This document shows, piece after piece, positions 6,360-25,644 of a stretch of 40,522 nt of DNA. The stretch spans positions 1 through 40,522 of the forward strand of contig SLOJ01000220.1 of the NCBI GenBank assembly GCA_007132585.1, read 5' to 3'. This DNA is from Bacteroidales bacterium (GTDB lineage: Bacteria > Bacteroidota > Bacteroidia > Bacteroidales > UBA7960). The notes under the pieces were generated by a model that did not search any database, had not been told where the DNA came from, and worked only from the letters and a program-made list of their open reading frames with translations. The translations under genes and the position numbers were made by a program. Each line of letters begins with the position of its first letter. Position 1 is the stretch's first letter.

Positions 6360-9300
6360 TCAGTTGGTATGGATATTTACCGAATTGTTCCTGATATAGT
6401 CTTTTTGAATTTCTCTCAAAACTCTTACAATTTTTCTTGATTCATCATCCAGTTCACTACAAAGTGCTTCGAGCTTGTCAATATTGTTTTGCGAACGTGT
6501 AAGAAGCTGTATTTGGGTAATCAAATCCGATACTTCATTGAATCCAAGATAGCTGAAAGCTGGCTTTATTTTGTGTACCAGTTTGTTTAAAGTTGTAAGA
6601 TCTTTTTCGTAATAGGCCTCATTGACAGCAATCATTGCCCTGGGAATATCTTTAAGAAACCTGGATATGAGTGCCAGCGTACTTTCAAGATCGTCATCAA
6701 AAATAGAGGCAAGGGCATCCTTAATATGCTTCTTTACACTTTCGCTGTCATCTGCTATAATTTGCTCTTGCTTTATTTCATCGGCCTTTTTCTCAACAAA
6801 TTCAGTTTTCTGATTAATAACTGCACGGTTGATTTTATCAAACATTGTTTCCTGGTCGCTGGGCTTGGTAATATAATCATTCATACCAGCATCTAAAACC
6901 TTTTGCCTGGTTTCGGGAGTAACATCGGCAGTTAAAGCTATAATTGGTACATTATGGTTTGCCACACCGGTATTTTTATCACGAATTTTCTGTGCAGTTT
7001 CATAGCCGTCGAGTTCAGGCATGTGCAGATCCATAAGTACCAGATTGAAATTATCCTTTTTAAGCATTTCTATTGCCTGTAAACCATTATCAGCAACTTC
7101 CAGCTCAGCAAGCCATTTTTTCAGGAGCTTGGTAATTACATATTGATTCATCGTATCATCTTCTACCAGCAAAATCTTTACTCCTTTAAGGTTCTTTAAC
7201 CTGCCACCTGGTTTTCCCAATTCCTGAATATTAGGCTTTTCGCTTATTTTAAAGGGCAGATCAACCCAAAATGTAGAGCCCATGTCTTCTATGCTTTTTA
7301 CCCCTATTTCGCCGTTCAGCAGTTCGGTAAGCTTTTTACAAATGGCCAATCCCAGGCCTGTGCCACCAAACTTTCTTGCGGTATCTTTGGTGGCTTGTGT
7401 GTAAGATTCAAAAATACCCGAGAGTTGATCTTCCGGTATACCTTTACCGGTATCTGATACCGAAAATCTTATATTTACCTTATCATCATGCATGTTTATT
7501 ACTTTAACATCTATGCTTACATGCCCTTCACTGGTAAATTTTACCGCATTACTTAGTAAGTTTAAAAGTATTTGTCTTAATCTTGCAGGATCGCCCTTCA
7601 GAACTTTAGGTGCAGCAGGATCAATGTTTACATTCAGGTCTATTGCCTTTTCTCTGGCCTTAAAATCAAATGATTTACTTGATTCTTTCACCAGAGAAAT
7701 AACGTCAAAGTCGGTTTCTTCGAATTCAATCTTGCCCGCCTCGATCTTTGAAAAGTCAAGTACTTCATTGATTACTTCAAGTAAATGATCGGAAGAAAAC
7801 TTTATGGATCTCATATTATCGAGCAATTCTGACGAAAGATTGTTTTCATCGATAATCAGTTCTGCGAGCCCGATTATATTATTCAGGGGAGTACGTATTT
7901 CGTGACTCAGGTTGCTTATAAAAAAGCTTTTTACGCTGGTAGCTTCTTCGGCTGTTTCCTTTGCCTTCTGTAATTCACTTTCAATTTTCTTACTGTGGCT
8001 AATATCAAAAACAATTGAATATTTTATGTTTTTTCCTTTTAATCTTGCTTCACTTTCATATACTTCAACAGCTCTGGTTGTGTCATCACTAAGCTTATGG
8101 GTAAAATAGTAATATGCTCTGTCATCATTTTCAGCTGTTTTCATTTCTTTCTGGATCTCTTCTTCTGTCATTGCAAGTATATCACTCATATTTTTACCCA
8201 GAAGCGCATCCTTATCCCACCCATAATAATCAACCGAAGCTTCATTGGCATCCAGAATGTCACCCGTTTCAGCGTCCGATATTAAAATTACCGTTTTACT
8301 TTTTGCAAAAAGATTTTTAAATTTTATTTCATTTTCGCGCAACAGAATCTCGGCTTCTTTTCTTTCATTTACATCAGCATGGGTGCCAATGATACGCCAT
8401 GCATTATCGTTTGAATCCAGGATAAGGGTAAAAGAAGCCAGTATCCATTTATAGAAACCATCTTTACATTTCATCCTGTATTCTGTTTGAAAAGATGGAA
8501 AATTACCTGTTTCCAGGTTTTCGAGAATTCGCACAACTTTGGCTTTATCATCAGGATGAATAAGATCGGTCCATGATTCTTTAGTGTTTTTAATATCGGT
8601 TTCCTTATATCCCAGCATTTCTTTCCATTGCAATGACAAGTAAAGAGTTTCATCTTTAAGATCATAATCAAAGATGCCCTGTCCGGTAACAGCAATAATG
8701 TTTGCCAGTCTTTCGTGCGATTCGGAAAGTTCGTTGCTTTTATGTTTCTTTTCGGTTATATCTATTGCCGTGACAATAACAGCTGTTTTACCTTCTGCTT
8801 GTATACTTCTTGCTGAAAAATCAACCCATTTGCTTTCCTGGTGGCGTGTAACAATCTTCAAGTCGTTACGAAATGAATCCTTATTCTGATCTGTTATCAG
8901 ATCATCATTATTAAAAGTTTGCAAACTATCAGGATGCAGTATTTGAAAAACTTCCATTTTAAGAAGTTCCTTACGGTGATATCCGGTAAGAATTTCAAAA
9001 GAAGGATTAACATAAATGATCCTGTAATTTTGAAACACCATAATTGGCGAAGGGGAGGATTCAATGAGCCTTAAAAGCTTTTCATGATTGATGTGCGTTT
9101 TTTTTGATTTCTGAAGTGTCCTAATCCAAAAAAATGTTATAACAATTTGTACAACGATCAGTAAACCGACAAAAAATATGAAGTTTCCGTAATAGAAAGG
9201 CAGGTTTAAATCAGCAAGCAATTTAAATTCCGTAAGTAATGAATTGGTTTTCTGCAGAAAGTTTGTTAACGTAGTAAACCCATACATAACAGTTTCAACA

Positions 9301-9467
9301 GCAGAAATAGAGCTATTTACTGCTGAGCCTGATTGTTGAATCTCGCTGGTTACGCCTGAAATTTCTCCGGGGGAGGCAGAGGCAATGCCAGACTTAAGGT
9401 ATAAACCCAGATTAAAAACCAGAAACAGAGAAAAGATTGTAAAATTTAATGAAGGTAATCTTTTCAC
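6360..9467 (-). CDS. Hybrid sensor histidine kinase (3 PAS, HisKA, HATPase, REC, HPt)
   Basis: This 1035-residue membrane-bound phosphorelay protein has all transfer modules in one chain. An N-terminal hydrophobic segment (about 8-30) and a second helix (about 95-116) bracket a small periplasmic domain. Three PAS domains follow (about 128-240, 250-370, 380-495). The kinase core has the phospho-accepting His522 in SHEIRTP, the N box LLNLLSNAVKF around 634-644, the G1 box DTGKGIP 672-678 and the G2 box GGTGLGL 701-707. The receiver domain (about 763-885) has acidic DD around 770-771, phospho-acceptor Asp813 and Lys868. The C-terminal HPt domain (about 915-1023) carries His965 in LVHKIKP. No DNA-binding output is attached or adjacent, so the partner is unknown. 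It is monocistronic, with its own promoter and terminator. Confidence 0.93.
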   Translation of the reverse strand: MKRLPSLNFTIFSLFLVFNLGLYLKSGIASASPGEISGVTSEIQQSGSAVNSSISAVETVMYGFTTLTNFLQKTNSLLTEFKLLADLNLPFYYGNFIFFVGLLIVVQIVITFFWIRTLQKSKKTHINHEKLLRLIESSPSPIMVFQNYRIIYVNPSFEILTGYHRKELLKMEVFQILHPDSLQTFNNDDLITDQNKDSFRNDLKIVTRHQESKWVDFSARSIQAEGKTAVIVTAIDITEKKHKSNELSESHERLANIIAVTGQGIFDYDLKDETLYLSLQWKEMLGYKETDIKNTKESWTDLIHPDDKAKVVRILENLETGNFPSFQTEYRMKCKDGFYKWILASFTLILDSNDNAWRIIGTHADVNERKEAEILLRENEIKFKNLFAKSKTVILISDAETGDILDANEASVDYYGWDKDALLGKNMSDILAMTEEEIQKEMKTAENDDRAYYYFTHKLSDDTTRAVEVYESEARLKGKNIKYSIVFDISHSKKIESELQKAKETAEEATSVKSFFISNLSHEIRTPLNNIIGLAELIIDENNLSSELLDNMRSIKFSSDHLLEVINEVLDFSKIEAGKIEFEETDFDVISLVKESSKSFDFKAREKAIDLNVNIDPAAPKVLKGDPARLRQILLNLLSNAVKFTSEGHVSIDVKVINMHDDKVNIRFSVSDTGKGIPEDQLSGIFESYTQATKDTARKFGGTGLGLAICKKLTELLNGEIGVKSIEDMGSTFWVDLPFKISEKPNIQELGKPGGRLKNLKGVKILLVEDDTMNQYVITKLLKKWLAELEVADNGLQAIEMLKKDNFNLVLMDLHMPELDGYETAQKIRDKNTGVANHNVPIIALTADVTPETRQKVLDAGMNDYITKPSDQETMFDKINRAVINQKTEFVEKKADEIKQEQIIADDSESVKKHIKDALASIFDDDLESTLALISRFLKDIPRAMIAVNEAYYEKDLTTLNKLVHKIKPAFSYLGFNEVSDLITQIQLLTRSQNNIDKLEALCSELDDESRKIVRVLREIQKDYIRNNSVNIHTN

Positions 9468-9776: not shown

Positions 9777-10961
9777 TCAGATAAATTCCAGAGTTACTTC
9801 TTTAAGAAACTTTTCTTCGAGTAAAGAAGCTATTTTTTTTGCCACACTACGTCGAATTTCCAGTTCAACCGGCAGATTAGGGTCCTGATGGGCAACGTTT
9901 ATAGCTGTACCAATGCATAGGTATATTTCATCACTTTCAAGCAGCAGTTTAATAATGCTATCGGCAGGTCCCTTGCCCAGCTCCGTTCGATCATTATATT
10001 TTTCAAGTATTCCGGATACTTTGCTTAATGTAAGAATTCCTTCGGTAACAAGTTCAACTCCTTCCATATGAGAAATAGGGGGAAGATCGTGGTCATCAAA
10101 CTCAAGCGTATCCTCGATGGGAAGGTTTAGTTTTTCTGAAATAATATCGGCAGTAGTACCTCCGCAAATAATCTTTTTGCCTTTAAAGTCTTTAACTTTG
10201 TTACCCAGATACTCATCTTTTTCTTTATCAAATGGAGGCCCTGAGCAAAGAAGCAATTTTCTGGGCTCACGAAAGTACACCACAACAGTGCTTATGTCAT
10301 CTTTTGATTGATATTCATCATTAGTGTGGGCGCGGTTAACAATTACCGATGCAAGTTTTGTTGCCGAAATATCCGGATGAGATGTGATTTGAGATAATAC
10401 CATATCGCGTGTATTCTCCCATCCGAAACCAAGCAGGTATTTGCCTTTTCCCAGGCCGCTCTGAGTTATTCCATCTGTAAGCATTATTATCCGGTCCTCC
10501 TTTAATGCCTTGAATGAGCATGCTTGTATTTCATTACTCCTTTTATCCTGGCTGTCAATTTTTATGGTATGCCAGTCAGGCTTAAGTTCTTCTTCATTAC
10601 GCACAATAATGCATTGAGGATTATCATAATTGATTATGGTTGTTTGACCATTATCTTCAATATCAATAATAGTAAATGTGGCATAGCTTATTTTTCTTTC
10701 ACTGCAAACCGGAAGGGTATTCATAATGATTTCAGCAATTTTATGCACATCTTTATGTTCGGCAGTAAAATTTATTGCCATGGTGGCGGTAAGTGTGGCA
10801 AGCAAATTAGCTTTTACACCATGGCCCATCCCATCCGACAATACCACTACTGTTCTGTTCTCTTCCTTAATCTTTCGTGTAAGAAAAACATCTCCGCAAA
10901 TACGCTCACCGATATGGTTTTTCTGCAATACACCAACTTCTATGAAAAAGGAATTATCCAT
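9777..10961 (-). CDS. SpoIIE-family protein phosphatase with extra C-terminal domain
   Basis: The first ~230 of 394 residues form a PP2C/SpoIIE serine/threonine phosphatase domain with metal-binding motifs VVLSDGMGHG 39-48, MLTDGITQSG 160-169 and KDDISTVVVYF 220-230. Such phosphatases usually dephosphorylate regulatory proteins, for example anti-anti-sigma factors. The remaining ~160 residues (232-394) form a second domain that I do not recognise, with KKIICGGTTADIIS 262-275 and MEGVELVTEGILTLS 299-313. The gene follows the PAS-type sensory hydrogenase with a 59-nt gap. SpoIIE-type phosphatases next to group C [FeFe]-hydrogenases are a known association, so it is the likely output of that sensor. 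Its target is not visible in the window. Confidence 0.85.
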   Translation of the reverse strand: MDNSFFIEVGVLQKNHIGERICGDVFLTRKIKEENRTVVVLSDGMGHGVKANLLATLTATMAINFTAEHKDVHKIAEIIMNTLPVCSERKISYATFTIIDIEDNGQTTIINYDNPQCIIVRNEEELKPDWHTIKIDSQDKRSNEIQACSFKALKEDRIIMLTDGITQSGLGKGKYLLGFGWENTRDMVLSQITSHPDISATKLASVIVNRAHTNDEYQSKDDISTVVVYFREPRKLLLCSGPPFDKEKDEYLGNKVKDFKGKKIICGGTTADIISEKLNLPIEDTLEFDDHDLPPISHMEGVELVTEGILTLSKVSGILEKYNDRTELGKGPADSIIKLLLESDEIYLCIGTAINVAHQDPNLPVELEIRRSVAKKIASLLEEKFLKEVTLEFI

Positions 10962-11020: not shown

Positions 11021-12877
11021 TTAGTCATTTTTCTTAACCTTTTTGTAGGTTTCTATGATAGAGTTGAGCATTTTTTCGGTACTTGATGCACCCTCACCCA
11101 GAGAAAAAGCTATCTGTTGTACCATCTTCAGGTTTTCGTCAATTACCTCGGTTACCCGGTTAATAATCTCCTCTTGTCTTACTTCGGCCACATACATATC
11201 GCGGAAAACAGCTCCCGCAATTTTATTGGGCTTTAGCGAGAAAACGCTTATGTTCAGTAACCCTTCATTAAAGTTTATATCTCTTCCGAGAATATTTTCA
11301 TCCTTCTGAAGCACGTAATTGAAAAGGTTGTAAATATTATAGGGTAGTAGTGTTTTTAAATCCGCTCCAATGAGTCCGGGTATTACTTCATTTATCATTT
11401 CGGCATCTTCACCTAAAGTATTAATAAATGAACTGTTTGATTCAATCACTTTAAGATTCTCATCAACAATAACCACAGCCGATGGAAGGTTATGCAACAG
11501 TGAAGAAATGGTTTCTGACTGGGTTTTTATTTTTTGATTATCTGTTTTAAGAAGTTTTTCATTTTCTTCCAGTTCCTTCCGGTTTTTTCTTAGCTTTTCA
11601 TTGTTGGCTTTTAGCGTTTTAATGAAATCCTGTTTGTTTTTAAGTGAATAGGTCAGGCACGTATCGGGTTTAGCCAGGCCTTGACTAACAGAAACGGCAA
11701 AATCGCGGCAGCTTCTGAACCCACAGGCGTTGCAAGATGATTTTTCATCAACTGATTTATCAACAGACTTAAGTATTTCTTCAATTTTTTCATCTGAAGG
11801 AATTTCAAGTCGTTGATCATCTGAGGTGAATGTCCGTGAAAGATCAAGATCTGAGAAGTAACTCATATCTTTTTCCCATTTTTTCTTATCAAAATTTTTC
11901 AACCTTTTTTTGGCATAGTCGATCACAAGTGTTTTCCTCAAAAACTTTCGGTTATCGGGTGTGGTTCCCGGGCCCATAAGACAGCCTTTATTGTAAAACA
12001 AATTGAAGTGTTTTTTCAATACTTCGGGTCCCTGACTGAATTCATCGATGGCATCCATTATATTAAATTTTCCATCGGTAGTAAGCACTGGTGATTCCAT
12101 CATATTTTCCGATATACCAGCAGCAGTTAAAATACCCTTACTCAGGGGGTAAAGTGATCCAAGATAACCTATGGGCTCATCAAAATCAGAATATTCAACC
12201 GTTGATTCCTTTATGTTTTTCTCATGAAACATTTGCCGCAATTCATGGAAAGTAAGCACTGCATCCACTTTTCTATTTCCTTTATGTCTGTTTGCTTCAT
12301 CTTTTGCCGAAACACATGGACCGATATAAACTACTCCAATATCAAGGCCAAATTTCTTTCTTACTACCATGGCAGTGGCCGTCATAGGTGTTACAATCGG
12401 ACTTAGATTGGTTGCCATTTCAGGATAAAATTTCTCTACATAAGACACAATTGACGGGCAATTTGCACTGATGTAATACTTTCCTTTAAAATTCGTAAAC
12501 AATTTATGGTATTCTTTTGCCACCAGATCTACACCAAATGAAACTTCATTCACGTAATTAAAACCCAGGGTTCGTATCATGTCTACGAATCTTATGTAAT
12601 CGGTAATATCAGGAAATTCACCACTGATGCTTGGATCAACAATTGCAGCTATCTTTTTTTCTGATTCAAGAAGTTTGAACGTGTCAGCGATTGAACTGGC
12701 GTATGATACGGCATTTACTGGGCAAACATTTAAACAGCTTCCGCATCCTATGCATCTGTCATGGTTAATCTCAGGGTTTTCATTATGTTTCGATACTGTA
12801 ATGGCCTGTACAGGACAAGCCCTGATACATGCATGGGATTGGTTACATTTTTCAAGATCAATATTTATCAGTTGCAT
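11021..12877 (-). CDS. hydS: Sensory [FeFe]-hydrogenase (group C-like, HydS type) with PAS domain
   Basis: This 618-residue cytosolic protein combines two N-terminal ferredoxin-type motifs, a hydrogenase H-cluster domain (about 75-345), a CxxCG-type 4Fe-4S domain (Cys382, 385, 390, 407), a coiled coil (about 411-460) and a PAS domain (about 455-560). This is the architecture of group C putative H2 sensors. The H-cluster motifs are non-catalytic in style: ISANCP 136-141 has Asn in place of the proton-relay Cys, followed by IGPC 185-188. In the third motif the first cysteine ligand is replaced by Tyr295 (FYNKGC), leaving only Cys299. The first ferredoxin motif also lacks one cysteine (Cys11, Ser14, Cys17, Cys21), while the second is complete (Cys42, 45, 48, 52). 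It lies between a small ferredoxin and the SpoIIE phosphatase in one leftward unit. Whether it holds an intact H-cluster is open. Confidence 0.88.
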   Translation of the reverse strand: MQLINIDLEKCNQSHACIRACPVQAITVSKHNENPEINHDRCIGCGSCLNVCPVNAVSYASSIADTFKLLESEKKIAAIVDPSISGEFPDITDYIRFVDMIRTLGFNYVNEVSFGVDLVAKEYHKLFTNFKGKYYISANCPSIVSYVEKFYPEMATNLSPIVTPMTATAMVVRKKFGLDIGVVYIGPCVSAKDEANRHKGNRKVDAVLTFHELRQMFHEKNIKESTVEYSDFDEPIGYLGSLYPLSKGILTAAGISENMMESPVLTTDGKFNIMDAIDEFSQGPEVLKKHFNLFYNKGCLMGPGTTPDNRKFLRKTLVIDYAKKRLKNFDKKKWEKDMSYFSDLDLSRTFTSDDQRLEIPSDEKIEEILKSVDKSVDEKSSCNACGFRSCRDFAVSVSQGLAKPDTCLTYSLKNKQDFIKTLKANNEKLRKNRKELEENEKLLKTDNQKIKTQSETISSLLHNLPSAVVIVDENLKVIESNSSFINTLGEDAEMINEVIPGLIGADLKTLLPYNIYNLFNYVLQKDENILGRDINFNEGLLNISVFSLKPNKIAGAVFRDMYVAEVRQEEIINRVTEVIDENLKMVQQIAFSLGEGASSTEKMLNSIIETYKKVKKND

Positions 12878-12911: not shown

Positions 12912-13184
12912 TTATGATGATGAAGAATTTAAAAGTTTCTCTGCCAGCAAATCGGTAAGATTTTCATCATTTACATTGATAATTACTTCTTCATTGATTT
13001 TCATAACAGGTCCTTTATCGCATTTCGACATGCAATGTGCGCCTTTGAGAGTTACCTCGTCTTCCAGTTTTTGTTCTTTCAAAAAATCCTGGATCATGCG
13101 CACAAGATTTCTGTTGCCCCTCGAGAAACAACTACTTCCCATGCATATGACTATTGTGTGAGGTTTTTGGGTCATGATATCCAT
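12912..13184 (-). CDS. Thioredoxin-like [2Fe-2S] ferredoxin, hydrogenase-associated
   Basis: This 90-residue protein has the thioredoxin-like [2Fe-2S] ferredoxin fold found as HydC/NuoE C-terminal domains and as stand-alone proteins in [FeFe]-hydrogenase operons. Its four cysteine ligands are Cys14 and Cys19 (CMGSSC) and Cys51 and Cys55 (CMSKC). It is the first gene of the leftward sensor unit, 34 bp ahead of the sensory hydrogenase, facing hydCBA across the divergent intergenic region. It is probably an electron carrier to or from the sensor. The true start may be Met4 (13175), because neither ATG has a clear ribosome-binding site. Confidence 0.85.
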   Translation of the reverse strand: MDIMTQKPHTIVICMGSSCFSRGNRNLVRMIQDFLKEQKLEDEVTLKGAHCMSKCDKGPVMKINEEVIINVNDENLTDLLAEKLLNSSSS

Positions 13185-13545: not shown

Positions 13546-14028
13546 ATGGACACTAAATTAAGTTCCATTTTTGAAAATTATCCCAATAAACAAAGGGATG
13601 ATCTCATACCTCTTTTGCACAGCATTCAGGATCAGTTTGGCTATTTATCGGAAGAGTTTATCATTGAAGTAGGCAATTATCTTAATATTTCGGTAAATAA
13701 AATTTATGGTGTTGCTACCTTTTATGATAATTTTCGTTTTGGCCCCAAAGGTAAGTTTCATATAAGACTTTGTCACGGTACTGCCTGTCATGTTGCTGGT
13801 TCTTCAAATATTCTTTCAGAACTGGAAAAACTTCTCCGAATAAGCAATGGAGAAACAGACAAAAACGGTTTGTTTAGCCTTGAAGTTGTTTCTTGTATAG
13901 GCGCCTGTGGACTGGCACCACTGATTGAGATCAACGAAGAATATTTCTCACAATTAACAACCGAATCCTTAAAAGACATTCTGAACCATTTCAGGGAAAA
14001 CCATAATAGTATTTATGAAGATCAATGA
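13546..14028 (+). CDS. hydC: [FeFe]-hydrogenase subunit HydC (NuoE-like, [2Fe-2S])
   Basis: This 160-residue NuoE/HndA-type subunit belongs to the soluble trimeric [FeFe]-hydrogenase. It has an N-terminal helical domain (about 1-70) and a thioredoxin-like fold with the four ligands of one [2Fe-2S] cluster: Cys76, Cys81 (CHGTAC), Cys117 and Cys121 (CIGAC). The segment YGVATFYDNF 54-63 is typical of NuoE. It is the first gene of the rightward unit and overlaps hydB by 14 bp, indicating translational coupling. The subunit probably passes electrons to or from the flavin subunit. Transcription is likely under Rex control through the site just upstream. Confidence 0.95.
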   Translation: MDTKLSSIFENYPNKQRDDLIPLLHSIQDQFGYLSEEFIIEVGNYLNISVNKIYGVATFYDNFRFGPKGKFHIRLCHGTACHVAGSSNILSELEKLLRISNGETDKNGLFSLEVVSCIGACGLAPLIEINEEYFSQLTTESLKDILNHFRENHNSIYEDQ

Positions 14029-15964
14029 TCGAAATGCGGTAAAAGAATTCCTCGTAAAAAAGGTTTTAAGAAATCCTGATCGTGATAAGGATACTGATAT
14101 CAGTAAACAACTCTCTCAGATAGGTCGCGACAGGATAACAAAACCACTCATTTATGTGGGTACATCTACCTGTGCTATTGCAGCAGGTGCTCAGAAAACA
14201 CATGATGCAATTGCAAAATACCTTACTGATTCGCATCATGATGTTGATCTTGTAAAAGGAGGTTGTGTGGGTTTTTGTAAAGCAGAACCATTGGTTGATG
14301 TCCAGTTGCCTGGTAAAGCACGCATTTCTTTCGGAAATATCAAAGCAGATATGGTTCCTGAGCTGCTGGATGAGATACTGAATAATCATGTGCCAACTGA
14401 TATGGTGCTTGGGCAATACCGAAGTGCTGTTCATCAGCCATGGGATAACGTATATTTCCTTGATGAGCTTGATTTTAACAAGCATCAGAAAAAAATACTG
14501 ATGGCTAATTGTGGCATCATTGATCCGGTTTCAGTTTCAGAATACATTGCAAGGGGGGGCTATCAGGCATTTGCAGATACCATAACCCGATATACGCCTT
14601 CGCAGGTATGTGATCTGGTTGAAGAAAGCATGCTTGCGGGTAGAGGAGGAGGTGCTTATATTGCAGGTAAAAAGTGGAAAATATCGCTCAATACGGTCAG
14701 CGATCAAAAGTATTTTGTTTGCAATGCAGTTGAAAGCGACCCCGGTAGTTACATGAATCGGGTAATAATGGAAAGTGATCCGCACCAGCTTATTGAAGCT
14801 ATCCTTATAGCATCATATGCTATTGGAGCTTCCAAAGCTTTTATTTTTACCCGTCGCGAGTTTCCCCTTGCCATTGAACGGTTAAATCAAGCTCTTAAGG
14901 AAGCCGATGAATATGGTGTTCTGGGACATAATATTTTTGATTCGGGTGTAAATATTGACATTGTAGTAAAGGAGGGAGCGCGAGCCTTTGTTTGTGGTGA
15001 AGAAACAGCACTTAATAACAGTATCGAAGGAAAACGTGCAATGCCGGTTTCCAAACCACCATTTCCGGCCATAAAAGGTTTATGGAATAAACCTACCATA
15101 GTAAATAACCTTGAAACGATTATCAATGTGCCTATGATCATGAAAAATGGTCCTGATTGGTTTAAAGGCATTGGCAATGAGAAAAGCAAGGGAACAAAAT
15201 TGTTTACATTAAGTGGTAAGGTAAAAAACTATGGCACTATCGAAGTGGAGATGGGAATTAGTTTCAGAGATATAGTATACAAAATTGGTGGTGGTATAAA
15301 AGATAAGCAGGATTTTAAAGCTATTATACTGGGAATTAACAGTGGTAGTTATGTAACAGAAAAAACACTGGATACCTTAGTTGACTTTGATGCACTGAAA
15401 CAAATCGGATCTGCCCTTGGAAGCGGTGCATGTGTTGTTGTTGACAAGAACTCCTGTATGCTGGATCTTGCCAAGTTTTTTACACGGTTTTTTAAAAATG
15501 AAAGTTGTGGAAAGTGTATTCCATGTCGCGAGGGAACCGCACGTATGCTTGAAATAGTTGAAACAGCTACCCGTAAACCTGAAAAAGAAAATTCTTTTCA
15601 AACCCTTGAACGCTTTAAAGGAATTATGCAGTTAAAGGGTATGGCTGACGTTATGAAGGATACCAGCCTGTGTTCGCTCGGAAAATCTGCTCCAAATGCT
15701 ATACTGAATACCCTTGCCAATTTTAAGTCGGAATTTGATGCACATGTTTTTGAAAGAAAATGTCCGGCAGGTGTTTGCCGCGATTTAAAAACCTACACGA
15801 TAGATGTTGATATGTGCACAGGATGCACTGCATGTTTTAAAAAGTGTCCGGTAGATGCAATTATAGGCACGCCAAGGCAACCACATTTTATTGTTCAGGA
15901 TAAATGCATTGCCTGCAATGCATGTTATGAGGTATGTAAGTTTAATGCTGTATTAGTGGAATAA
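14015..15964 (+). CDS. hydB: [FeFe]-hydrogenase subunit HydB (NuoF-like flavoprotein)
   Basis: At 649 residues this has the full HydB layout: a thioredoxin-like [2Fe-2S] domain (about 44-125; Cys53, Cys84, Cys88 visible), the NuoF-type FMN/NADH domain (about 150-480), the N3-type 4Fe-4S site (ESCGKCIPC, Cys498/501/504, plus Cys553) and a C-terminal 2x[4Fe-4S] ferredoxin domain (Cys601/604/607/611 and Cys631/634/637/641). It should oxidise or reduce NAD(P)(H) and ferredoxin for hydrogenase turnover. CGEETAL 327-333 and VNNLET 363-368 are kept. The FMN loop, normally GRGGAGFPTGLKW, reads GRGGGAYIAGKKW (209-221), and the normal NADE motif reads NAVE (237-240). Flavin or nucleotide use may therefore differ from characterised HydB. 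It overlaps hydC by 14 bp and hydA follows after 13 bp. Confidence 0.93.
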   Translation: MKINDRNAVKEFLVKKVLRNPDRDKDTDISKQLSQIGRDRITKPLIYVGTSTCAIAAGAQKTHDAIAKYLTDSHHDVDLVKGGCVGFCKAEPLVDVQLPGKARISFGNIKADMVPELLDEILNNHVPTDMVLGQYRSAVHQPWDNVYFLDELDFNKHQKKILMANCGIIDPVSVSEYIARGGYQAFADTITRYTPSQVCDLVEESMLAGRGGGAYIAGKKWKISLNTVSDQKYFVCNAVESDPGSYMNRVIMESDPHQLIEAILIASYAIGASKAFIFTRREFPLAIERLNQALKEADEYGVLGHNIFDSGVNIDIVVKEGARAFVCGEETALNNSIEGKRAMPVSKPPFPAIKGLWNKPTIVNNLETIINVPMIMKNGPDWFKGIGNEKSKGTKLFTLSGKVKNYGTIEVEMGISFRDIVYKIGGGIKDKQDFKAIILGINSGSYVTEKTLDTLVDFDALKQIGSALGSGACVVVDKNSCMLDLAKFFTRFFKNESCGKCIPCREGTARMLEIVETATRKPEKENSFQTLERFKGIMQLKGMADVMKDTSLCSLGKSAPNAILNTLANFKSEFDAHVFERKCPAGVCRDLKTYTIDVDMCTGCTACFKKCPVDAIIGTPRQPHFIVQDKCIACNACYEVCKFNAVLVE

Positions 15965-15977
15965 TTTTAATCCGTAT

Positions 15978-17699
15978 ATGAGTTTTAACATTCAAGTAAA
16001 TAACAAACCTGTTGAGGTACACGAAGGTGAAATACTATTGAATGCCTTGCGCAGAAATGGTATTAAAATTCCTACTTTGTGCTATATGCATGGTTTTACG
16101 CCATCCGGTGCCTGCAGACTATGCGTCGTGGAGATAGATGGGAAAAGAGATCTTGTAACGTCCTGCGCTTATCCCGTTGAACCGGAAATGGTTGTAAAAA
16201 CCAATTCTGCAAGGGTAATAAAAGCCAGAAAGTCACTGGTAGAAATGTTGCTTTCCAATCATCCCGATGATTGCTTGTATTGCGAGCGCAACGGTAATTG
16301 CGAATTGCAATGGCTTGCCGAAGAAATGAATATTAAAGAGAGAAAATATTTCAGCAGCAAGCGTTCTGATAAACGTGATCATTCCAGCCCGAGTGTTTAT
16401 CGCGATCCTGCAAAGTGTATTCTTTGCAGCAGATGTGTAAGGGTTTGTGAAGAAGTTCAACTGGTTACAGCTATAGAGTTTATTTCCAGGGCTGATAAAA
16501 CTTCTGTAAATTCAGCTTTCAGCAAAGGACTCAATATTTCAAGTTGTATCAATTGCGGACAATGTATAATGGTTTGCCCTACCGGGGCACTTGTTGATAT
16601 TTCTCATATTGAGAAGGTGCAATCTGCTCTGGCAAGTGACAAAAAATACCCTGTAGCTTTTTTGTCACCCGCTTTTGTGGCATCCGTGTCCGATCATTTC
16701 AATTTAAAACCCTCTGATAAACCTGCAGGATTAATTATTGCAGCATTAAAAAATATGGGTTTCAGAAAAGTTTATGATCTGGGTTGGGCAGTGGATATGA
16801 ATATTCACCTTGAAGCTTCGCTATTGCTGGAAAGGAGTAAGAAAAAAGATACTGTTACTCCATTGTTTTCTTCCTGTTGTCCTGCCTGGATTAAATACGC
16901 TGAAGAATTTGTTCCGGAAATGATCTCCGATATCTCAACGGTTAAATCGCCTCAACAGTTGATGGGTTATATAGTTAAGAATCACGAAAAAGCTGAGGCA
17001 GAAAAGAAAAAACAGCAGCTATATACAGTTTCCCTGATGGCTTGTGTTGCCAATAAATTTGAAGGCTCAAGGGAGGGAAATACACGTAAGGGTGAATCGG
17101 AAGTTGATGCTACTTTAACCATCAGGGAGTTTCTGAAAATGCTGCGTAGTTATGGCATAAACTTACTTCGCTTTGATCCGGTTATCGCTGATAATCCTTT
17201 TGATCACTCATCTGCAGCCGGCTATCAGGTATCTTATTCAGGGGGTAAAGCTGAAGCCGTAGCCATGCATTTAAATCATCTGATAAACGGAGAGAAAAAA
17301 AACGGGCCTAAATTCACCCCACCTAAAAATCCCGGTAGTAAAAAAGAAGTTAAACTTTCAATTGGAAAACAGGAGTTTGGTTTTGCATGGGTAAGCGGAA
17401 TAGGAGAAGCACAAAAATATTTTGATCAGCTTGTAACTGAAAAAAGAAAAGACATTCATTACGTAGAGGTAATGGCTTGTCCGGGCGGTTGCGCTGGAGG
17501 AGGAGGACAACCCGTTTATTATTTCCAGGATAAACACAAAGCACGCAAAAAAACAGGTCAGGATCTTGAAAAAAGTCTAAAATCCCGAAAACCATCCCAA
17601 AACATACATATGTTGGAGTATTTGAATGTTCGTTTGGCTCGCAAAGAAGAAAAAGATGTATTACAAACCCGCTTCAAACAAAGAGATGTGATAAAATAA
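15978..17699 (+). CDS. hydA: [FeFe]-hydrogenase catalytic subunit HydA (M3 architecture)
   Basis: This 573-residue subunit carries the H-cluster that interconverts protons and H2. An N-terminal [2Fe-2S] domain (Cys35, 46, 49, 63) is followed by a His-ligated 4Fe-4S cluster (His95, Cys99, 102, 108), two ferredoxin clusters (Cys147/150/153/157 and Cys190/193/196/200) and the H domain (about 225-553). H-cluster motifs are FSSCCPAW 297-304 (relay Cys300, ligand Cys301), LMACVANKFE 353-362 (ligand Cys356) and EVMACPGGCAGGG 497-509 (Cys501, Cys505). All ligands are present, but the second motif differs from MPCxxKxxE: Pro is Ala355, and the lysine that contacts a cyanide ligand in CpI is Asn359. 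The first motif has Ser for Thr. It follows hydB by 13 bp and is the third subunit of the HydABC complex. Confidence 0.93.
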   Translation: MSFNIQVNNKPVEVHEGEILLNALRRNGIKIPTLCYMHGFTPSGACRLCVVEIDGKRDLVTSCAYPVEPEMVVKTNSARVIKARKSLVEMLLSNHPDDCLYCERNGNCELQWLAEEMNIKERKYFSSKRSDKRDHSSPSVYRDPAKCILCSRCVRVCEEVQLVTAIEFISRADKTSVNSAFSKGLNISSCINCGQCIMVCPTGALVDISHIEKVQSALASDKKYPVAFLSPAFVASVSDHFNLKPSDKPAGLIIAALKNMGFRKVYDLGWAVDMNIHLEASLLLERSKKKDTVTPLFSSCCPAWIKYAEEFVPEMISDISTVKSPQQLMGYIVKNHEKAEAEKKKQQLYTVSLMACVANKFEGSREGNTRKGESEVDATLTIREFLKMLRSYGINLLRFDPVIADNPFDHSSAAGYQVSYSGGKAEAVAMHLNHLINGEKKNGPKFTPPKNPGSKKEVKLSIGKQEFGFAWVSGIGEAQKYFDQLVTEKRKDIHYVEVMACPGGCAGGGGQPVYYFQDKHKARKKTGQDLEKSLKSRKPSQNIHMLEYLNVRLARKEEKDVLQTRFKQRDVIK

Positions 17700-17748: not shown

Positions 17749-19785
17749 ATGGATCTTCAACAAAAAAATCAATTTATTTATACGGTTAAAGACCGTTGTA
17801 AGGTTTGCTATACATGTGTAAGAGAATGTCCTGCCAAAGCCATTCGAATCGTTAACGGGCAGGCTGAAATAATTGCAACAAGGTGTATTGCTTGTGGTAA
17901 TTGTGTTAAGGTTTGCAACAGAGATGCCAAAATGTTTTCCTTTGCAATTGACAGGGTTAAAAAGCTTATAAAAAGCGAAGATAAGGTGGCTGCAATTATT
18001 GCTCCCAGCGTGGCAGGTGAGTTTATTGATATTTCAGATTACCAAACCCTTGTGGGGATGATAAGAATGCTTGGATTCGACCATGTTAATGAAGTTGCTT
18101 TTGGTGCCGAGCTGGTTGCAGATAAATATAAAGAACTGCTCAGGAAAGATCAGAAACAAACCTTTATTTCAACAAGTTGTCCGGCAATAGTATCTTATGT
18201 TGAAAAGCATCATCCACAGATAGTTAAATCACTTGCTCCTATTGTATCTCCAATGATTGCTACTGCCAGGGTACTGCATGATATACATGGCAATGATTTA
18301 AAGATTGTGTTTATTGGTCCGTGCATAGCAAAAAAAAATGAAGCAGCCCTCGGGCAATTTAAAGAAATGGTGCACGAAGTGATTTCTTTTACCGAGCTAA
18401 GAAGAATGTTTGATGAGAAAAACATAAACCCCGAACATCCTGATATTGTACCATCAGAATTTGATCAGCCCATAGCAGGTAAAGGTTCGGTTTTTCCAAT
18501 AAGCGGGGGTATGTTGCAAACCGTTGACCTGGAAGAAGATTTTCTCAATGGAGAAATTGTTGTTGCAGAAGGCAGGCAGGATATTATTGAAGTACTGAAA
18601 GAATTTGAAGAGGGGTATCTTGAAGCCAAATTATTCGATTTGCTTTGTTGCAACGGTTGTATGAATGGTCCGGGAATGAGTAGTCGTCAGAAGTTTTTTC
18701 TTAAAAGAAAAAACATCAGCAATTTTGCAAAAAGACAATTTGACCGGCTTGATCAGGCTGAATGGGAGAAAAATAAAAAGAAATACTCTAATATAAAGCT
18801 TGATAGATATTTTATAGCCGATGACCAACGATATCCTTCAAACTTTTCAGAAGAAGAGATAAATAAGGTTAAAGAAAAACTGGGTATTAAAGGGCAGGAT
18901 GATGAACTTAACTGCACTGCTTGCGGATATGATACTTGCCATGAACACGCGGTAGCTATTTTGAAAGGAATTGCTGAAACAGAAATGTGCCTGCCTTATA
19001 CTATTGATAAGCTACATAAATACATTACCGATCTAGATGTTTCCAATAAAAAACTGGCATCTACCCAAGATGCTCTCAAGCAATCTGAAAAACTGGCATC
19101 AATGGGCCAGTTGGCTGCCGGTATTGCCCATGAGGTCAATAATCCCCTGGGGGTGGTAATCATGTACGCTCATCTTTTACTTGATGAAATAGAGCCCGAT
19201 TCACCTCATTACAGAGACCTAAAGCTTATTGTTGATCAGGCTGACCGGTGCAAGAAAATTGTGGGCGGATTACTTAACTTTGCAAGAAAAAGCAAGGTAA
19301 ATATTACTGAGGTAAAAATCAGATCGCTCATTAAAAATAGTTTGAAGGCTGTAATGATGCCTTCAAACGTTGATTTAAACATAGAACTGGATACCCCCCA
19401 GGAATTTATTGCCTGCGATCATGATCAAATGGTTCAGGTATTTTCAAACCTTGCAAAAAATGCAGTGGATGCTATGCCCGATGGTGGCGAATTGCTTGTA
19501 AAAGTTGAAGATGATCCCAATATCACCGGAGGCTTGGTATTTACAGTCAAAGATACAGGCACCGGTATTTCTCCTGAAAACCTGGAGAAGATGTTTGAAC
19601 CCTTTTTCACCACTAAAGAAGATGGAAAAGGAACCGGTTTAGGTTTGCCAATCATGTATGGTATTGTAAAAATGCATAAGGGAAATATCAAGGTTGATTC
19701 AAACACTGATCCGGAGAAAGGACCCTGCGGAACCAGCTTTTATGTTAGCCTTCCCGGAGTACCGGAAAAAATTAATGCACATTGA
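17749..19785 (+). CDS. Sensory [FeFe]-hydrogenase fused to a histidine kinase
   Basis: This 678-residue fusion has two complete ferredoxin clusters (Cys17/20/23/27 and Cys46/49/52/56), an H-cluster domain of the sensory type (about 78-350), a CxxCG 4Fe-4S domain (Cys389, 392, 397, 414), a short coiled coil (about 420-450) and a full histidine kinase. The kinase has His461 in AGIAHEVNNPLG, the N box SNLAKNAVDAM 566-576, DTGTGI 602-607 and GKGTGLGL 626-633. H-cluster motifs are STSCP 141-145 (Ser143 at the relay-Cys position, ligand Cys144), IGPCIAKK 189-196 and LLCCNGC 298-304, so all four cluster ligands are available. There is no membrane segment. It starts 49 bp after hydA and precedes two receiver genes. 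It is probably a cytosolic H2 or redox sensor that phosphorylates those receivers; the signal is inferred. Confidence 0.9.
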   Translation: MDLQQKNQFIYTVKDRCKVCYTCVRECPAKAIRIVNGQAEIIATRCIACGNCVKVCNRDAKMFSFAIDRVKKLIKSEDKVAAIIAPSVAGEFIDISDYQTLVGMIRMLGFDHVNEVAFGAELVADKYKELLRKDQKQTFISTSCPAIVSYVEKHHPQIVKSLAPIVSPMIATARVLHDIHGNDLKIVFIGPCIAKKNEAALGQFKEMVHEVISFTELRRMFDEKNINPEHPDIVPSEFDQPIAGKGSVFPISGGMLQTVDLEEDFLNGEIVVAEGRQDIIEVLKEFEEGYLEAKLFDLLCCNGCMNGPGMSSRQKFFLKRKNISNFAKRQFDRLDQAEWEKNKKKYSNIKLDRYFIADDQRYPSNFSEEEINKVKEKLGIKGQDDELNCTACGYDTCHEHAVAILKGIAETEMCLPYTIDKLHKYITDLDVSNKKLASTQDALKQSEKLASMGQLAAGIAHEVNNPLGVVIMYAHLLLDEIEPDSPHYRDLKLIVDQADRCKKIVGGLLNFARKSKVNITEVKIRSLIKNSLKAVMMPSNVDLNIELDTPQEFIACDHDQMVQVFSNLAKNAVDAMPDGGELLVKVEDDPNITGGLVFTVKDTGTGISPENLEKMFEPFFTTKEDGKGTGLGLPIMYGIVKMHKGNIKVDSNTDPEKGPCGTSFYVSLPGVPEKINAH

Positions 19786-19807: not shown

Positions 19808-20206
19808 ATGCTTAAAATTGAGAAAAAGAAGATTTTACTGGTTGATGATGATCCTGATTATCTCTTTCAGCTTACCATAGCACTGGAAGATATGGGTTTT
19901 GAAGTAATTGCAGCACAAACTCAGCAGGAAGCTGAAAATATTGTTGACAAAATGAAACCTGATCTGGCCATTCTTGATTTAATGATGGAAAATCAGGATA
20001 CTGGATTTATCCTTTGCCATCTGATAAAAAATAAATATCCTGATGTGCCCATCATCATCGCCTCGGCTGTTACAGCTGAAACAGGATTGTTGTTTGATGT
20101 TGAATCGGAAGAAGATCGTCAGTGGATCAAAGCAGATCTTTTTCTTGATAAAGGCATAAGAAATGACCAGCTTCAAAAGGAAATCAATAAATTGCTCAAA
20201 ATATAA
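19808..20206 (+). CDS. Single-domain response regulator (receiver)
   Basis: This 132-residue protein is a stand-alone CheY-like receiver with the acidic pocket at DDD 13-15, phospho-acceptor Asp57 (LAILDLMM) and conserved Lys115 (LFLDKG). There is no output domain, so it must act by protein-protein contact or as a phosphorelay shuttle. It sits 22 bp after the hydrogenase-kinase fusion and 3 bp before the receiver-kinase, so it is probably the direct phosphoryl acceptor linking the two. Confidence 0.9.
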   Translation: MLKIEKKKILLVDDDPDYLFQLTIALEDMGFEVIAAQTQQEAENIVDKMKPDLAILDLMMENQDTGFILCHLIKNKYPDVPIIIASAVTAETGLLFDVESEEDRQWIKADLFLDKGIRNDQLQKEINKLLKI

Positions 20207-20209
20207 GCA

Positions 20210-21331
20210 ATGGGAAAGCTAAATCTGCTTGTGGTTGATGATGAACCAGGAATCAGAAGTGGTATAAAACGTATTCTGGAAAGTTTCTCGGTAAGCTATC
20301 CTTTCATGGATGAAGACTTCGAATTTGATGTGCTGGAAGCCGAAACCGGAGAGGAAGCCATTGAGTTACTTGATAATTACTTGTTTGATATTGTGCTGCT
20401 TGATAACAAACTACCCGGGATTCAAGGGGTTGAAGTACTTGAGTATATTAAAAGTCAAAGTATTGATGCCATAGTGGTAATGATTACTTCATATGCATCG
20501 CTTGATCTGGCGGTAAAAGCAACCAAAAGCGGGGCTTATGATTTTGTGCCAAAACCGTTTACACCCAAAGAATTGAGAAGTTGTCTTGAGAATATTGCCA
20601 AGCAATTGTTTCTTAGGCGAATGACTCAAAAACTGCAGGTAGAAGGTAAACAAATAAGATTTCAGTTTCTATCAGTCCTTTCGCATGAATTAAAATCACC
20701 TATCAATGCCATTGAAGGGTATCTTAATCTCATGGAAACAAAAAAGAAGGGCGAAAAGATTGATGATTATGCCGAAATGATTCAGCGTTCTTTGGCAAGG
20801 GTGCAGGATATGAGAGATTTGATAATGGACCTGCTTGATTTTACGAAAATCGAATCAGGTAAAAAACAGCGTAACATAAAACCTGTTTATTTGTCTGAAA
20901 TAGCTCGTCAGGCTATTGACTTGATTCAACCGCTTTGTATCCAGAAAGACATTGATATACATTTGAATTGTAATGAAAAAATAACACTTAAAGCAGATCG
21001 TCAGGAACTCGATATAATTCTCAATAACCTGCTTTCAAACGCAGTAAAATACAATAAACAGAATGGGCGTATCGACCTTACGCTAAAAAAGGAGAAAGAT
21101 GAGGTAGTACTTAATGTAAGTGATACAGGTATTGGGATGGAAAAGGAAGATATAGACAAGCTTTTTGAAGATTTTGTGCGCATAAAAAGTGAACAAACAA
21201 AAAATATAAGCGGTACAGGATTAGGTTTATCCCTGGTGAAAAAAATCGCCGATCTCTACAATGCAAAAATTCAGGTAGAAAGTGAACCGGGAAGTGGAAG
21301 CACATTTACAATCAGGTTTCCGGGAAATTAA
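20210..21331 (+). CDS. Receiver-histidine kinase hybrid (REC-HisKA-HATPase)
   Basis: This 373-residue cytosolic protein has an N-terminal receiver (about 4-125; DDE 10-12, phospho-acceptor Asp65, Lys115) followed by a histidine kinase core with His159 in SHELKSP, N box NNLLSNAVKYN around 272-282, G1 DTGIGM 305-310 and G2 GTGLGL 335-340. With the receiver in front, its kinase activity can be gated by an upstream phosphodonor. Its place after the hydrogenase-kinase fusion and single receiver suggests a multistep relay. No DNA-binding output regulator follows; the next gene is rex. The final target is unknown. Confidence 0.9.
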   Translation: MGKLNLLVVDDEPGIRSGIKRILESFSVSYPFMDEDFEFDVLEAETGEEAIELLDNYLFDIVLLDNKLPGIQGVEVLEYIKSQSIDAIVVMITSYASLDLAVKATKSGAYDFVPKPFTPKELRSCLENIAKQLFLRRMTQKLQVEGKQIRFQFLSVLSHELKSPINAIEGYLNLMETKKKGEKIDDYAEMIQRSLARVQDMRDLIMDLLDFTKIESGKKQRNIKPVYLSEIARQAIDLIQPLCIQKDIDIHLNCNEKITLKADRQELDIILNNLLSNAVKYNKQNGRIDLTLKKEKDEVVLNVSDTGIGMEKEDIDKLFEDFVRIKSEQTKNISGTGLGLSLVKKIADLYNAKIQVESEPGSGSTFTIRFPGN

Positions 21332-21353
21332 TTATAAATATTATTTATACCAA

Positions 21354-21992
21354 ATGGACCCACAAAAAAGTAAAGATCTTCCAGGAAAGACCATTGAACG
21401 TCTTAGCCAATACAGGAGAATTCTTTTTAACAGTATAAACGAGGGTAAAGTAAATGTATATTCACATGAGCTTGCCCGCATGATGAATCTTACTCCCGTG
21501 CAGGTACGTCGTGATCTTATGTTGATCGGGTATTCGGGTAGCCAGAGCAAAGGCTATGTGATAAAAGATCTCATCAGCCTTATCGGTAAGATCATTGACA
21601 GTGATGAACCGCAGAAAGTGGCCATTGTTGGTATGGGTAACCTGGGGCGGGCAATAACAAGTTATTTCTCCGGTAAAAGAGAACGTTTATCAATTGTTGC
21701 AGCTTTTGATAACGATATGCAAAAAGCCAATCGCATTATAGCAGGTGTTCCGTGTCATCATGTAAACAAACTAAATGAAATACTTCCGGCTGAAGGTATA
21801 AAAATTGCAATACTTACATTAGCGCCGGAAGCAACCAATGAAGTGGCTAAAATGCTTTTTGATGCAGGAATAAAGGGAATTCTTAATTATACATCAGTAC
21901 CCCTTACAGTTCCCGAAGGAGTATTTCTGGAGGAATATGATATTGTTACTTCTCTTGAAAAGCTGGCGTTCTTGGTTAAACAGGATATGTAA
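21354..21992 (+). CDS. rex: Redox-sensing transcriptional repressor Rex
   Basis: Rex is a dimeric repressor that binds DNA when NADH/NAD+ is low and releases it as NADH rises, controlling fermentative and hydrogenase genes. The 212-residue product has an N-terminal winged helix (about 10-80, with LTPVQVRRDL 46-55 in the recognition region) and a Rossmann domain with VAIVGMGNLGRA 89-100 (GxGxxG) and IKIAILTLAPEA near 135-146. The reading frame is open back to 21282, but Met at 21354 fits known Rex N-termini and avoids a 50-bp overlap with the preceding kinase gene. It lies in the hydrogenase operon, and a candidate site precedes hydC, so feedback on the locus is likely. Confidence 0.92.
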   Translation: MDPQKSKDLPGKTIERLSQYRRILFNSINEGKVNVYSHELARMMNLTPVQVRRDLMLIGYSGSQSKGYVIKDLISLIGKIIDSDEPQKVAIVGMGNLGRAITSYFSGKRERLSIVAAFDNDMQKANRIIAGVPCHHVNKLNEILPAEGIKIAILTLAPEATNEVAKMLFDAGIKGILNYTSVPLTVPEGVFLEEYDIVTSLEKLAFLVKQDM

Positions 21993-23920: not shown

Positions 23921-25348
23921 ATGATATACCGCCCTGAAAATTACAGTATTAAGGATCAAAGGATGAAGCCATTCATTGATCCTGATGAAATCTGGAATTT
24001 TATCAATACAGCAAAAGGAGATAAAAGCCGGATCAGGGAGATTATAAAAGCTTCTCTTAATAAAAAACGATTATCATTAGAGGAAACAGCCATACTGCTT
24101 AATGCTGATGATCCTGAATTAATTGAAGAGATCAAAGAGGGAGCGCGCACACTTAAGGAGAGGGTTTATGGCGAAAGGATTGTACTTTTTGCCCCGCTTT
24201 ATGTGGGCGACCTTTGCACAAACAATTGCCAGTATTGTGGTTTCAGAGCCGAAAATAAAGGCATGAAGCGTATTACTTTAAGTCGTGAAGAACTCATTGG
24301 TGAAACCACTGCACTTATTGATCAGGGCCATAAACGATTAATTCTTGTTTACGGTGAACATCCGAAATATTCTGCCGATTTTATTGCGGAAACCGTAAAG
24401 ATTGTTTATAGCGTAAAACATGATAATGGTGAAATACGAAGAGTAAATATAAATGCCGCTCCGTTTGACATAAATGGTTTTCGCACCATAAAAGATTCAG
24501 GTATAGGCACTTTCCAGATCTTCCAGGAAACTTACCACGAACCCACTTACCAGAAAGTACACCTTGGTGGAATTAAAAGAAATTACGACTGGCGCCTTAC
24601 ATCGCTTGATCGTGCCCAGGAAGCTGGTATTGATGATGTAGGTATAGGTGCACTTTTCGGACTCTATGACTGGCGGTTTGAGGTACTTGGGCTCGTTAGG
24701 CATGTAAACCACTTTGAAGCTGTTTATAAAGTGGGGCCGCATACTATTAGTTTTCCAAGGATTCAAAATGCTCTCTCACTTAATATTGATAAAGATCATC
24801 TTGTAAAGGATGATGAATTTGTAAGACTGGTATCTATTCTGCGGCTGGCAGTGCCTTATACGGGTATGATACTCACTGCACGAGAGCCACACCACATTCG
24901 CGATCAGATATTAAGGTTCGGGGTATCGCAAATTGATGGAGGAACAAACCTTGAACTGGGTGGCTATAGCAAAGAAAAAAAAGACACCCAGGATCTTACC
25001 ATGGAGCAGTTTCAAATAAACGACAACCGCTCTTTGAATGAGATTATGGATGAGCTGATCAAAACAGGATATATACCATCATTTTGCACTGCATGTTACA
25101 GGCTTGGACGCACAGGTGAGCATTTCATGGAATTTTCTGTTCCGGGTTTTATCAAAAGGTTTTGTTCACCCAATGCCTTGCTTACCCTGGCAGAGTATCT
25201 TGAAGACTATGCGCCAACAGATACCAAAGAAAATGGCTATAAACTAATTAACCAGAAAATATCTCAACTGGCTCAGCACCAAAATGTAGATAAGCTTAAA
25301 GAAAAAGTTCAGTTGGTTAAAAATGGTAAACGTGATTTGTATTTCTGA
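23921..25348 (+). CDS. hydG: [FeFe]-hydrogenase H-cluster maturase HydG
   Basis: HydG is the radical-SAM tyrosine lyase that makes the CO and CN ligands of the H-cluster. The 475-residue protein has the radical-SAM motif CTNNCQYC (Cys99, 103, 106) and the C-terminal cysteines CTAC plus FC (Cys389, 392, 415) that bind the auxiliary cluster where Fe(CO)2CN is built. This auxiliary motif distinguishes HydG from the related ThiH. The segment GTFQIFQETYHEPTY 196-210 is typical of HydG/ThiH tyrosine lyases. The other maturases, HydE and HydF, are not in this window. Two TM1266-like genes follow at 29 bp and further, suggesting co-transcription. Confidence 0.95.
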   Translation: MIYRPENYSIKDQRMKPFIDPDEIWNFINTAKGDKSRIREIIKASLNKKRLSLEETAILLNADDPELIEEIKEGARTLKERVYGERIVLFAPLYVGDLCTNNCQYCGFRAENKGMKRITLSREELIGETTALIDQGHKRLILVYGEHPKYSADFIAETVKIVYSVKHDNGEIRRVNINAAPFDINGFRTIKDSGIGTFQIFQETYHEPTYQKVHLGGIKRNYDWRLTSLDRAQEAGIDDVGIGALFGLYDWRFEVLGLVRHVNHFEAVYKVGPHTISFPRIQNALSLNIDKDHLVKDDEFVRLVSILRLAVPYTGMILTAREPHHIRDQILRFGVSQIDGGTNLELGGYSKEKKDTQDLTMEQFQINDNRSLNEIMDELIKTGYIPSFCTACYRLGRTGEHFMEFSVPGFIKRFCSPNALLTLAEYLEDYAPTDTKENGYKLINQKISQLAQHQNVDKLKEKVQLVKNGKRDLYF

Positions 25349-25377: not shown

Positions 25378-25644
25378 ATGCAACAGTCAAGAATAATGGG
25401 AATAATGGTTTACGACCGCATAAAAGAAGCGGGTAAAACACAGGAAGTGCTTAGCAAATATGCTACCGCTATACGCACCAGACTAGGGTTTCATGAACTT
25501 TCAAGAGATGTATGCAGCAGGGTGGGAAACATCATCCTTGTTTTACAGGGTGATCCTAAAATCTGGAATGAACTTCAAACAGAATTGGAAGACATTGGAG
25601 GGGTAGAGGTTCAAATCATGAAATTTAAAAACTCCGGGAAATAA
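25378..25644 (+). CDS. TM1266-like hydrogenase-associated small protein, copy 1
   Basis: This 88-residue protein belongs to the TM1266 family, annotated as putative regulators of the iron-only hydrogenase system with an ACT/NikR-C-like fold. Recognisable segments are RIMGIMVYDR 5-14, IRTRLGFHEL 32-41 and IILVLQGDP 52-60. There is no DNA-binding motif of its own. It starts 29 bp after hydG and is followed by a second paralogue. The biochemical role of the family is not established, and the link to hydrogenase maturation is contextual. Confidence 0.82.
   Translation: MQQSRIMGIMVYDRIKEAGKTQEVLSKYATAIRTRLGFHELSRDVCSRVGNIILVLQGDPKIWNELQTELEDIGGVEVQIMKFKNSGK

Follow-up and report, generated by a model that had tools for sequence, protein, structure and literature searches.

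The PAS-type sensor encoded in the window, i.e., the whole stretch of 40,522 nucleotides from a Bacteroidales bacterium analysed here, has the fold of an [FeFe]-hydrogenase and lacks one of the cysteine ligands of the H-cluster. The missing cysteine is replaced by Asn296, and asparagine, histidine or aspartate occupies this position in 57 of 122 distinct orthologues, among them all those of the window's own GTDB family. We hold it an even call that the H-cluster site of this C3-type sensor has been remodelled into an iron-sulfur site made of three cysteines and one Asn, His or Asp, devoid of [2Fe], and that the protein responds to redox conditions instead of sensing H2 directly. The features on which this reading depends are collected in Table 1.

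Table 1. Location of the sensor, its metal-binding positions and its neighbours. Coordinates refer to the window.
Feature	Position	Strand	Basis or remark
PAS-type sensor, [FeFe]-hydrogenase fold, 618 aa	11021..12877	-	ORF, Pfam, AlphaFold2
Codon 14 (TCC, Ser), ferredoxin Cys absent	12836..12838	-	orthologue alignment
Codons 139-140 (Asn-Cys), relay position Asn139 (AAT, 12461-12463) and kept ligand Cys140 (CpI Cys300)	12458..12463	-	alignment
Codons 188-191 (Cys-Val-Ser-Ala), kept ligand Cys188 (CpI Cys355) and Ala191	12305..12316	-	alignment
FYNKGC, third H-cluster motif	11981-11998	-	sequence
Codon 295 (TAC, Tyr), residue named in the first-pass annotation	11993..11995	-	orthologue alignment
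Codon 296 (AAT, Asn), substituted H-cluster ligand	11990..11992	-	orthologue alignment
Codon 299 (Cys), CpI Cys503 equivalent, ligand bridging cubane and [2Fe]	11981..11983	-	kept in 119/122
SpoIIE/PP2C-type serine phosphatase, presumed output partner	9777..10961	-	directly downstream; Pfam SpoIIE E=1.2e-16
Thioredoxin-like [2Fe-2S] protein (NuoE/HydC C-terminal type), presumed electron partner	12912..13184	-	directly upstream
Divergent hydCBA operon (electron-bifurcating-type [FeFe] hydrogenase)	13546..17699	+	
Histidine-kinase sensor, same fold, intact ligands	17749..19785	+	natural internal control
Receiver protein and receiver-histidine kinase	19808..21331	+	downstream of histidine-kinase sensor
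Rex-like redox repressor	21282..21992	+	conserved neighbour
HydG H-cluster maturase	23921..25348	+	TIGR03955, 510 bits (cut-off 312)
PAS-type sensors without any of the four ligands	loci L107, L146, L162, L221		two lineages, neighbours kept

Sensor architecture and gene neighbourhood

From its N-terminus, the window sensor comprises a ferredoxin domain (residues 1-62), an H-domain (about 63-310; Pfam Fe_hyd_lg_C, E=5e-39, with a match ending at residue 284), a Cx2Cx4Cx16C iron-sulfur domain (382-407), a coiled coil (408-462), a PAS domain (465-560) and an output helix (564-616). The cysteines of the C-terminal cluster motif (C382, C385, C390 and C407) are invariant in 122/122 orthologues. The PAS domain was recognized by a Pfam match under the gathering score (E=0.005) and by predicted PAS-like secondary structure at 467-560; its fold is conserved among orthologues together with the output helix, which is invariant. 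The AlphaFold2 model, built without cofactors, has a mean pLDDT of 86.9, and the top PDB fold matches of the sensor are [FeFe] hydrogenases (CbA5H, DdHydAB variants, HydABC and CpI). HydDB group C3 is defined as sensors encoded with a serine/threonine phosphatase (PMC5037454). By its domain layout and its phosphatase neighbour, we assign the window sensor to the C3 (phosphatase-linked) or M2f type, a SpoIIE gene lying directly downstream in the window and in its relatives.

The product of the upstream gene, also a conserved neighbour, matches Pfam 2Fe-2S_thioredx (E=2.1e-12). Wherever enough sequence surrounds an orthologue, the order [2Fe-2S] protein, sensor and SpoIIE phosphatase is nearly always maintained, accompanied by the divergent hydCBA, the histidine-kinase sensor, the receiver, the receiver-kinase and Rex. 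From this gene order and the conserved helix, we infer that the sensor would interact with the SpoIIE phosphatase. The histidine-kinase sensor next door shares the ferredoxin domain, the H-domain and the Cx2Cx4Cx16C domain, with 35-38% identity over the shared part. Unlike the window sensor, it has a histidine kinase as output and keeps all ligands, the [2Fe]-anchoring lysine and Cys14. Its motifs read CCNGC, as the first-pass annotation had reported, GPCIAKK and CKVCYTC. As for maturation, a search of the genome to which the window belongs (about 84% complete) gave no HydF and, for HydE, only a partial match at a contig start; both are present in relatives.

Several other features of the locus deserve mention. 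The Rex-like ORF overlaps the receiver-kinase gene (20210-21331) by 50 bases, and its GTG start is probably placed too early. Directly downstream of hydG, two consecutive genes (25378-25644 and 25689-25940) encode small TM1266-like proteins, putative iron-only hydrogenase regulators, the first recognized by a sub-cut-off Pfam match and the second by eye only. A large PAS hybrid histidine kinase (6360-9467) follows the SpoIIE gene, a position kept in the loci of the closest relatives, and two ORFs (27163-28392, 409 aa; 39838-40452, 204 aa) have no Pfam match at E 0.01. The window HydA (15978-17699) is divergent, its second motif, MACVANKFE, having Asn where CpI has Lys358. This Asn is common to close relatives of the same genus, and other HydA of the family have Lys or Glu there. 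In several of the L067-L096 loci, mostly Lentimicrobium-like, HydA reads SSDCPAW or NSDCPAW and thus naturally has Asp where CpI has its proton-relay residue, Cys299; HydA of the L073 group reads SGSCPAW. A by-eye comparison of HydA active-site motifs with the state of the sensor revealed no simple link.

The substituted ligand and its surroundings

Orthologues were sought in 47 genomes of the same GTDB family, in samples of the order and the phylum, and in the GTDB genome collection, which yielded more than 100 loci; the records that carry them are labelled Bacteroidales, Lentimicrobium or other Bacteroidetes. Beyond the order, the phylum sample gave above-threshold matches to paralogues of the histidine-kinase type only. 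The alignment holds the 122 PAS-type orthologues, and 71 distinct histidine-kinase sensors make up the paralogue set. CpI numbering was transferred by motif alignment rather than by an inspected structure superposition.

The first-pass annotation had read the third motif as FYNKGC and had taken Tyr295 for the residue replacing a ligand cysteine. The motif, which falls inside the coordinates given there, and the codon are as described, and one cysteine is truly absent, but the alignment assigns the loss to the next residue. Position 295 is Tyr in 101 of the 122 orthologues, Phe in 18, Met in two and Thr in one, and is never Cys, whereas position 296 is occupied by Cys (62), Asn (29), His (19), Asp (9), Lys (1), Ser (1) or Gly (1). 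All 62 Cys-bearing orthologues place their cysteine at 296 in FYCEGC-like motifs, with Tyr (44), Phe (16) or Met (2) at 295. The same register prevails among the histidine-kinase paralogues, 67/71 of which have Cys at -3 (CxGC), 20 of them only there; the remaining four have CxxxC, and none is without the cysteine. It is very improbable that the CxxxC spacing is the right register here, with Tyr295 as the substituted ligand or as a ligand itself: such a register finds a parallel in three Firmicutes HydS, in the first cysteine of the neighbour's CCNGC and in CpI, where Cys499 and Cys503 are four residues apart as are Tyr295 and C299, but it conflicts with the position of the cysteine in both alignments. 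Because the three Firmicutes HydS have CxxxC, the Bacteroidota form is one residue shorter. As 295 is never Cys and the family's cysteine stands at 296, the substituted ligand is therefore Asn296; judging from the alignment, Tyr295 is an ordinary residue of the subfamily, and a Tyr295Cys variant, as had been proposed, would probe the wrong site.

The remainder of the pocket differs from that of CpI as well. CpI Lys358 is known to anchor [2Fe] and to hold its cyanide; a search of the available literature for the effect of a Lys358 mutation found nothing. In the window sensor, the Lys358 position is taken by Ala191, a change that the first-pass annotation had not mentioned. Among the 122 orthologues, this residue is most often Ala (82), followed by Thr (18), Ser (11) and Asn (6), and it is Lys in a single one. 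The lysine is thus gone in 121/122 PAS-type orthologues and kept in 71/71 paralogues of the histidine-kinase type and in all three Firmicutes HydS. Lys192, four residues after Cys188, is Lys or Arg in 122/122 orthologues and might act as a stand-in. Residue 81, at the position of CpI Ala230, is Asp in 45/57 proteins with Asn, His or Asp at 296 and Ala in 33/62 proteins with Cys296. Asn139, correctly named in the first-pass annotation as the residue at the relay position, is near fixed in the former set (55/57). The Asp and Asn139 together indicate that the pocket of these proteins is probably altered. In sensory enzymes, the ligand cysteines and the residues that stabilize [2Fe] or hydrogen-bond to it have been reported to be conserved (PMC10055695). 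Since the window sensor has only C140, C188 and C299 of the four cysteines expected for [4Fe-4S]H, with Asn at 296, it should not be classed among the hydrogenases that bear an H-cluster.

Ser14 in place of a ferredoxin cysteine, also noted at first pass, holds as well, with Ser or Thr in all orthologues of the same family. Residue 14 is Cys in 64, Ser in 53, Thr in three and Asn in one of 121 orthologues, so that the full set of eight cysteines for two [4Fe-4S] clusters is incomplete in the window sensor; the other seven are invariant in 121/121. As in ferredoxins with a non-Cys residue there, this may mean a [3Fe-4S] or a Ser-ligated cluster. A correlated loss of Cys14 and Cys296 received no support from an independent-pairs test, each being lost alone in some groups; the two losses overlap in the window's family and in the L073 group.

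Recurrence of the replacement and complete loss of the site

In the window's GTDB family, all orthologues covering the sites have Asn, His or Asp at 296 and Ser or Thr at 14, and because the same states recur across them, Asn296 and Ser14 are not sequencing slips. Parsimony on a quick tree, from whose alignment the trait columns had been left out, places about seven separate changes from Cys to Asn or Asp, and a later change to His inside the window's family; the minimum for Cys versus non-Cys is eight changes with the total losses counted (treekit), the count of origins being affected by open or weak forks and only three contrasts sitting on strongly supported branches. Ligand replacement at 296 thus seems repeated, with several origins. 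Codons for Asn, His and Asp are two base changes away from the Cys codons TGC and TGT, and none of the one-step substitutes (Tyr, Ser, Arg, Gly, Phe, Trp) occurs at 296 in the 57 proteins of this set.

All 57 retain C140, C188 and C299. Lys, Ser and Gly at 296 are confined to three proteins, exactly those without the other three ligands. Within the H-domain, pairwise dN is 0.03-0.14 against a dS of 0.7 to saturation for pairs with Asn, His or Asp, and pairs with Cys296 are similar. As the three other ligand cysteines are kept throughout and purifying selection is strong, the sensor gene is not decaying, and the replacement at 296 looks like a maintained change. Several conserved cofactor residues are missing together, as would be the case in a gene that is decaying or recently inactivated and that accumulates neutral substitutions. 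This explanation is hardly credible given the low dN with high or saturated dS, the invariant output helix, the conserved synteny and the sharing of identical substitutions by a whole GTDB family.

Two lineages, G053/G170 and G087/G197, with two species each, have lost all four ligands. In these proteins, C140 is replaced by Asp, C188 by Leu, Glu or Asn, and C299 by Ala or Phe, and the motifs read SNDPV or SCDPV, then GPL-like, GPE or GPN, and finally YKEFLM, TSGNALAG or MYGSALTG. The ferredoxin and C-terminal cluster cysteines are retained, and the genes still lie between the [2Fe-2S] and SpoIIE genes, adjoining Rex or hydCBA. Of these genomes, G053, G087 and G197 were tested, and all three encode HydE and HydF as well as other [FeFe] hydrogenases; the sensor has therefore been retained without an H-cluster in cells that could build one. 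Because both lineages keep the protein and its neighbours without any ligand, the H-cluster appears dispensable for the role of the family.

Proposed mechanism, alternatives and known relatives

In the proposed mechanism, C140, C188, C299 and one nitrogen or oxygen ligand would bind a [4Fe-4S] cluster, or a labile or [3Fe-4S] one, without [2Fe]. Electrons from the neighbouring [2Fe-2S] protein or from a ferredoxin would travel via the N-terminal clusters to the remodelled site. The state of this site, in redox or in occupancy, would then be relayed by the C-terminal cluster and the PAS domain and coiled coil to the SpoIIE phosphatase, which would tune expression of the hydABC region. The window sensor would thus report the redox state, and indirectly the H2 pressure, without binding H2, and sensing of H2 would be left to the neighbouring histidine-kinase paralogue, whose ligands are intact. 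Asn is a rare ligand of [4Fe-4S] clusters. Nar1/NARFL/IOP1 is an example of a hydrogenase fold that lacks [2Fe] and has a cubane where the H-cluster would sit; Nar1 has its four cysteines and takes part in iron-sulfur assembly in the cytosol.

It is unlikely, though to be taken seriously, that the sensor keeps a complete H-cluster in which Asn, His or Asp at 296, or water, is the fourth cubane ligand, and that it is a true H2 sensor with a shifted redox potential. The invariance of the bridging C299 and of C140 and C188 in the 57 proteins would be expected from such an arrangement, as would the restriction of the substitutes to residues able to coordinate iron; the window itself encodes HydG, close relatives have HydE and HydF as well as catalytic hydrogenases, and TmHydS assembles [2Fe] despite several pocket changes (PMC10055695). 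Nevertheless, the near-universal loss of the Lys358 equivalent and the Asp at the Ala230 position argue against a bound [2Fe], and characterized sensory hydrogenases are reported to conserve both the cysteine ligands and the residues hydrogen-bonded to [2Fe] (PMC10055695). At the other extreme, the site could be empty, leaving the N-terminal and C-terminal clusters and the PAS domain to sense on their own. Such a cluster-free scaffold, which the first-pass annotation had also envisaged, fits the two lineages of total loss, where the rest of the protein and the neighbours persist; for the window sensor it is rather improbable, given that the three remaining cysteines are invariant in the 57 proteins, unlike in those lineages, and that the domain is under strong purifying selection. 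The modified cluster, envisaged as well, is plausible; one H-cluster and one ferredoxin cysteine are indeed gone.

A close parallel in overall design is HydS of Ruminococcus albus 7 (L187, RUMAL_RS17375), a C3-type sensor about 25% identical to the window sensor and with the same order of domains from ferredoxin to output helix. Its locus resembles that of the window, with [2Fe-2S] genes directly upstream, Rex and adhE nearby, and a SpoIIE phosphatase gene that overlaps the end of the HydS gene. Unlike the window sensor, it keeps the H-cluster cysteines (CNGSC), the Lys358 equivalent (GPCVSKK) and Cys14. In R. albus, a group C hydrogenase with PAS and putative Ser/Thr phosphatase has been proposed to sense H2 and to adjust expression of hydrogenase and alcohol dehydrogenase (PMC6776011). 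By its published description, TmHydS of Thermotoga maritima (group C, M2f) is PAS-type, lacks the relay cysteine and has Gly at the Met353 position, all like the window sensor (PMC10055695; PMC8163306); however, its ligand cysteines are retained and it does incorporate [2Fe] (PMC10055695), whereas the window sensor lacks one ligand and the anchoring lysine. In Thermoanaerobacterium saccharolyticum, the PAS-type homologue HfsB (hfsABCD) is likewise encoded with a serine phosphatase, HfsC, and has been proposed to control hydrogenase and ethanol genes (PMC11837493; PMC5707799); it shares its operon with the catalytic HfsD, whereas the window sensor is divergent from hydCBA. Group C members of Hydrogenedentota, including BfuT, are sensory paralogues found beside A3 hydrogenases, as in the window, and the C1 type has been reported to lack recognizable H-cluster motifs, a precedent for motif loss in group C (PMC11406978). 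In C1, the motifs as a whole are hard to find, whereas in the phosphatase-linked branch of the window a single ligand is exchanged for Asn, His or Asp and the three-Cys site is intact.

It is assumed that sensory [FeFe]-hydrogenases detect H2 directly by a complete H-cluster, for which direct physiological evidence is thin (PMC8924675). The present comparison suggests that an H2 sensor has been converted into one that uses another metal site and perhaps reads the redox state of the cell. We infer that the phosphatase wiring would have been kept and the detector changed in about half of the sampled Bacteroidales sequences. A broader claim, to which we lean slightly less than halfway, is that these proteins form a recurrent natural class of phosphatase-driving redox sensors, with a non-Cys (Asn, His or Asp) cubane ligand and no [2Fe], some lineages of which would have ended in total loss of the site. 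Calling such genes H2 sensors on the strength of their fold alone can mislead. The lineage with Asn, His or Asp at 296 is a natural source of variants for studying the ligand chemistry of [4Fe-4S]H, and as the fold, the accessory clusters and the phosphatase are kept while the ligand is swapped or the site lost, one can ask in this family which part of the protein carries the signal.
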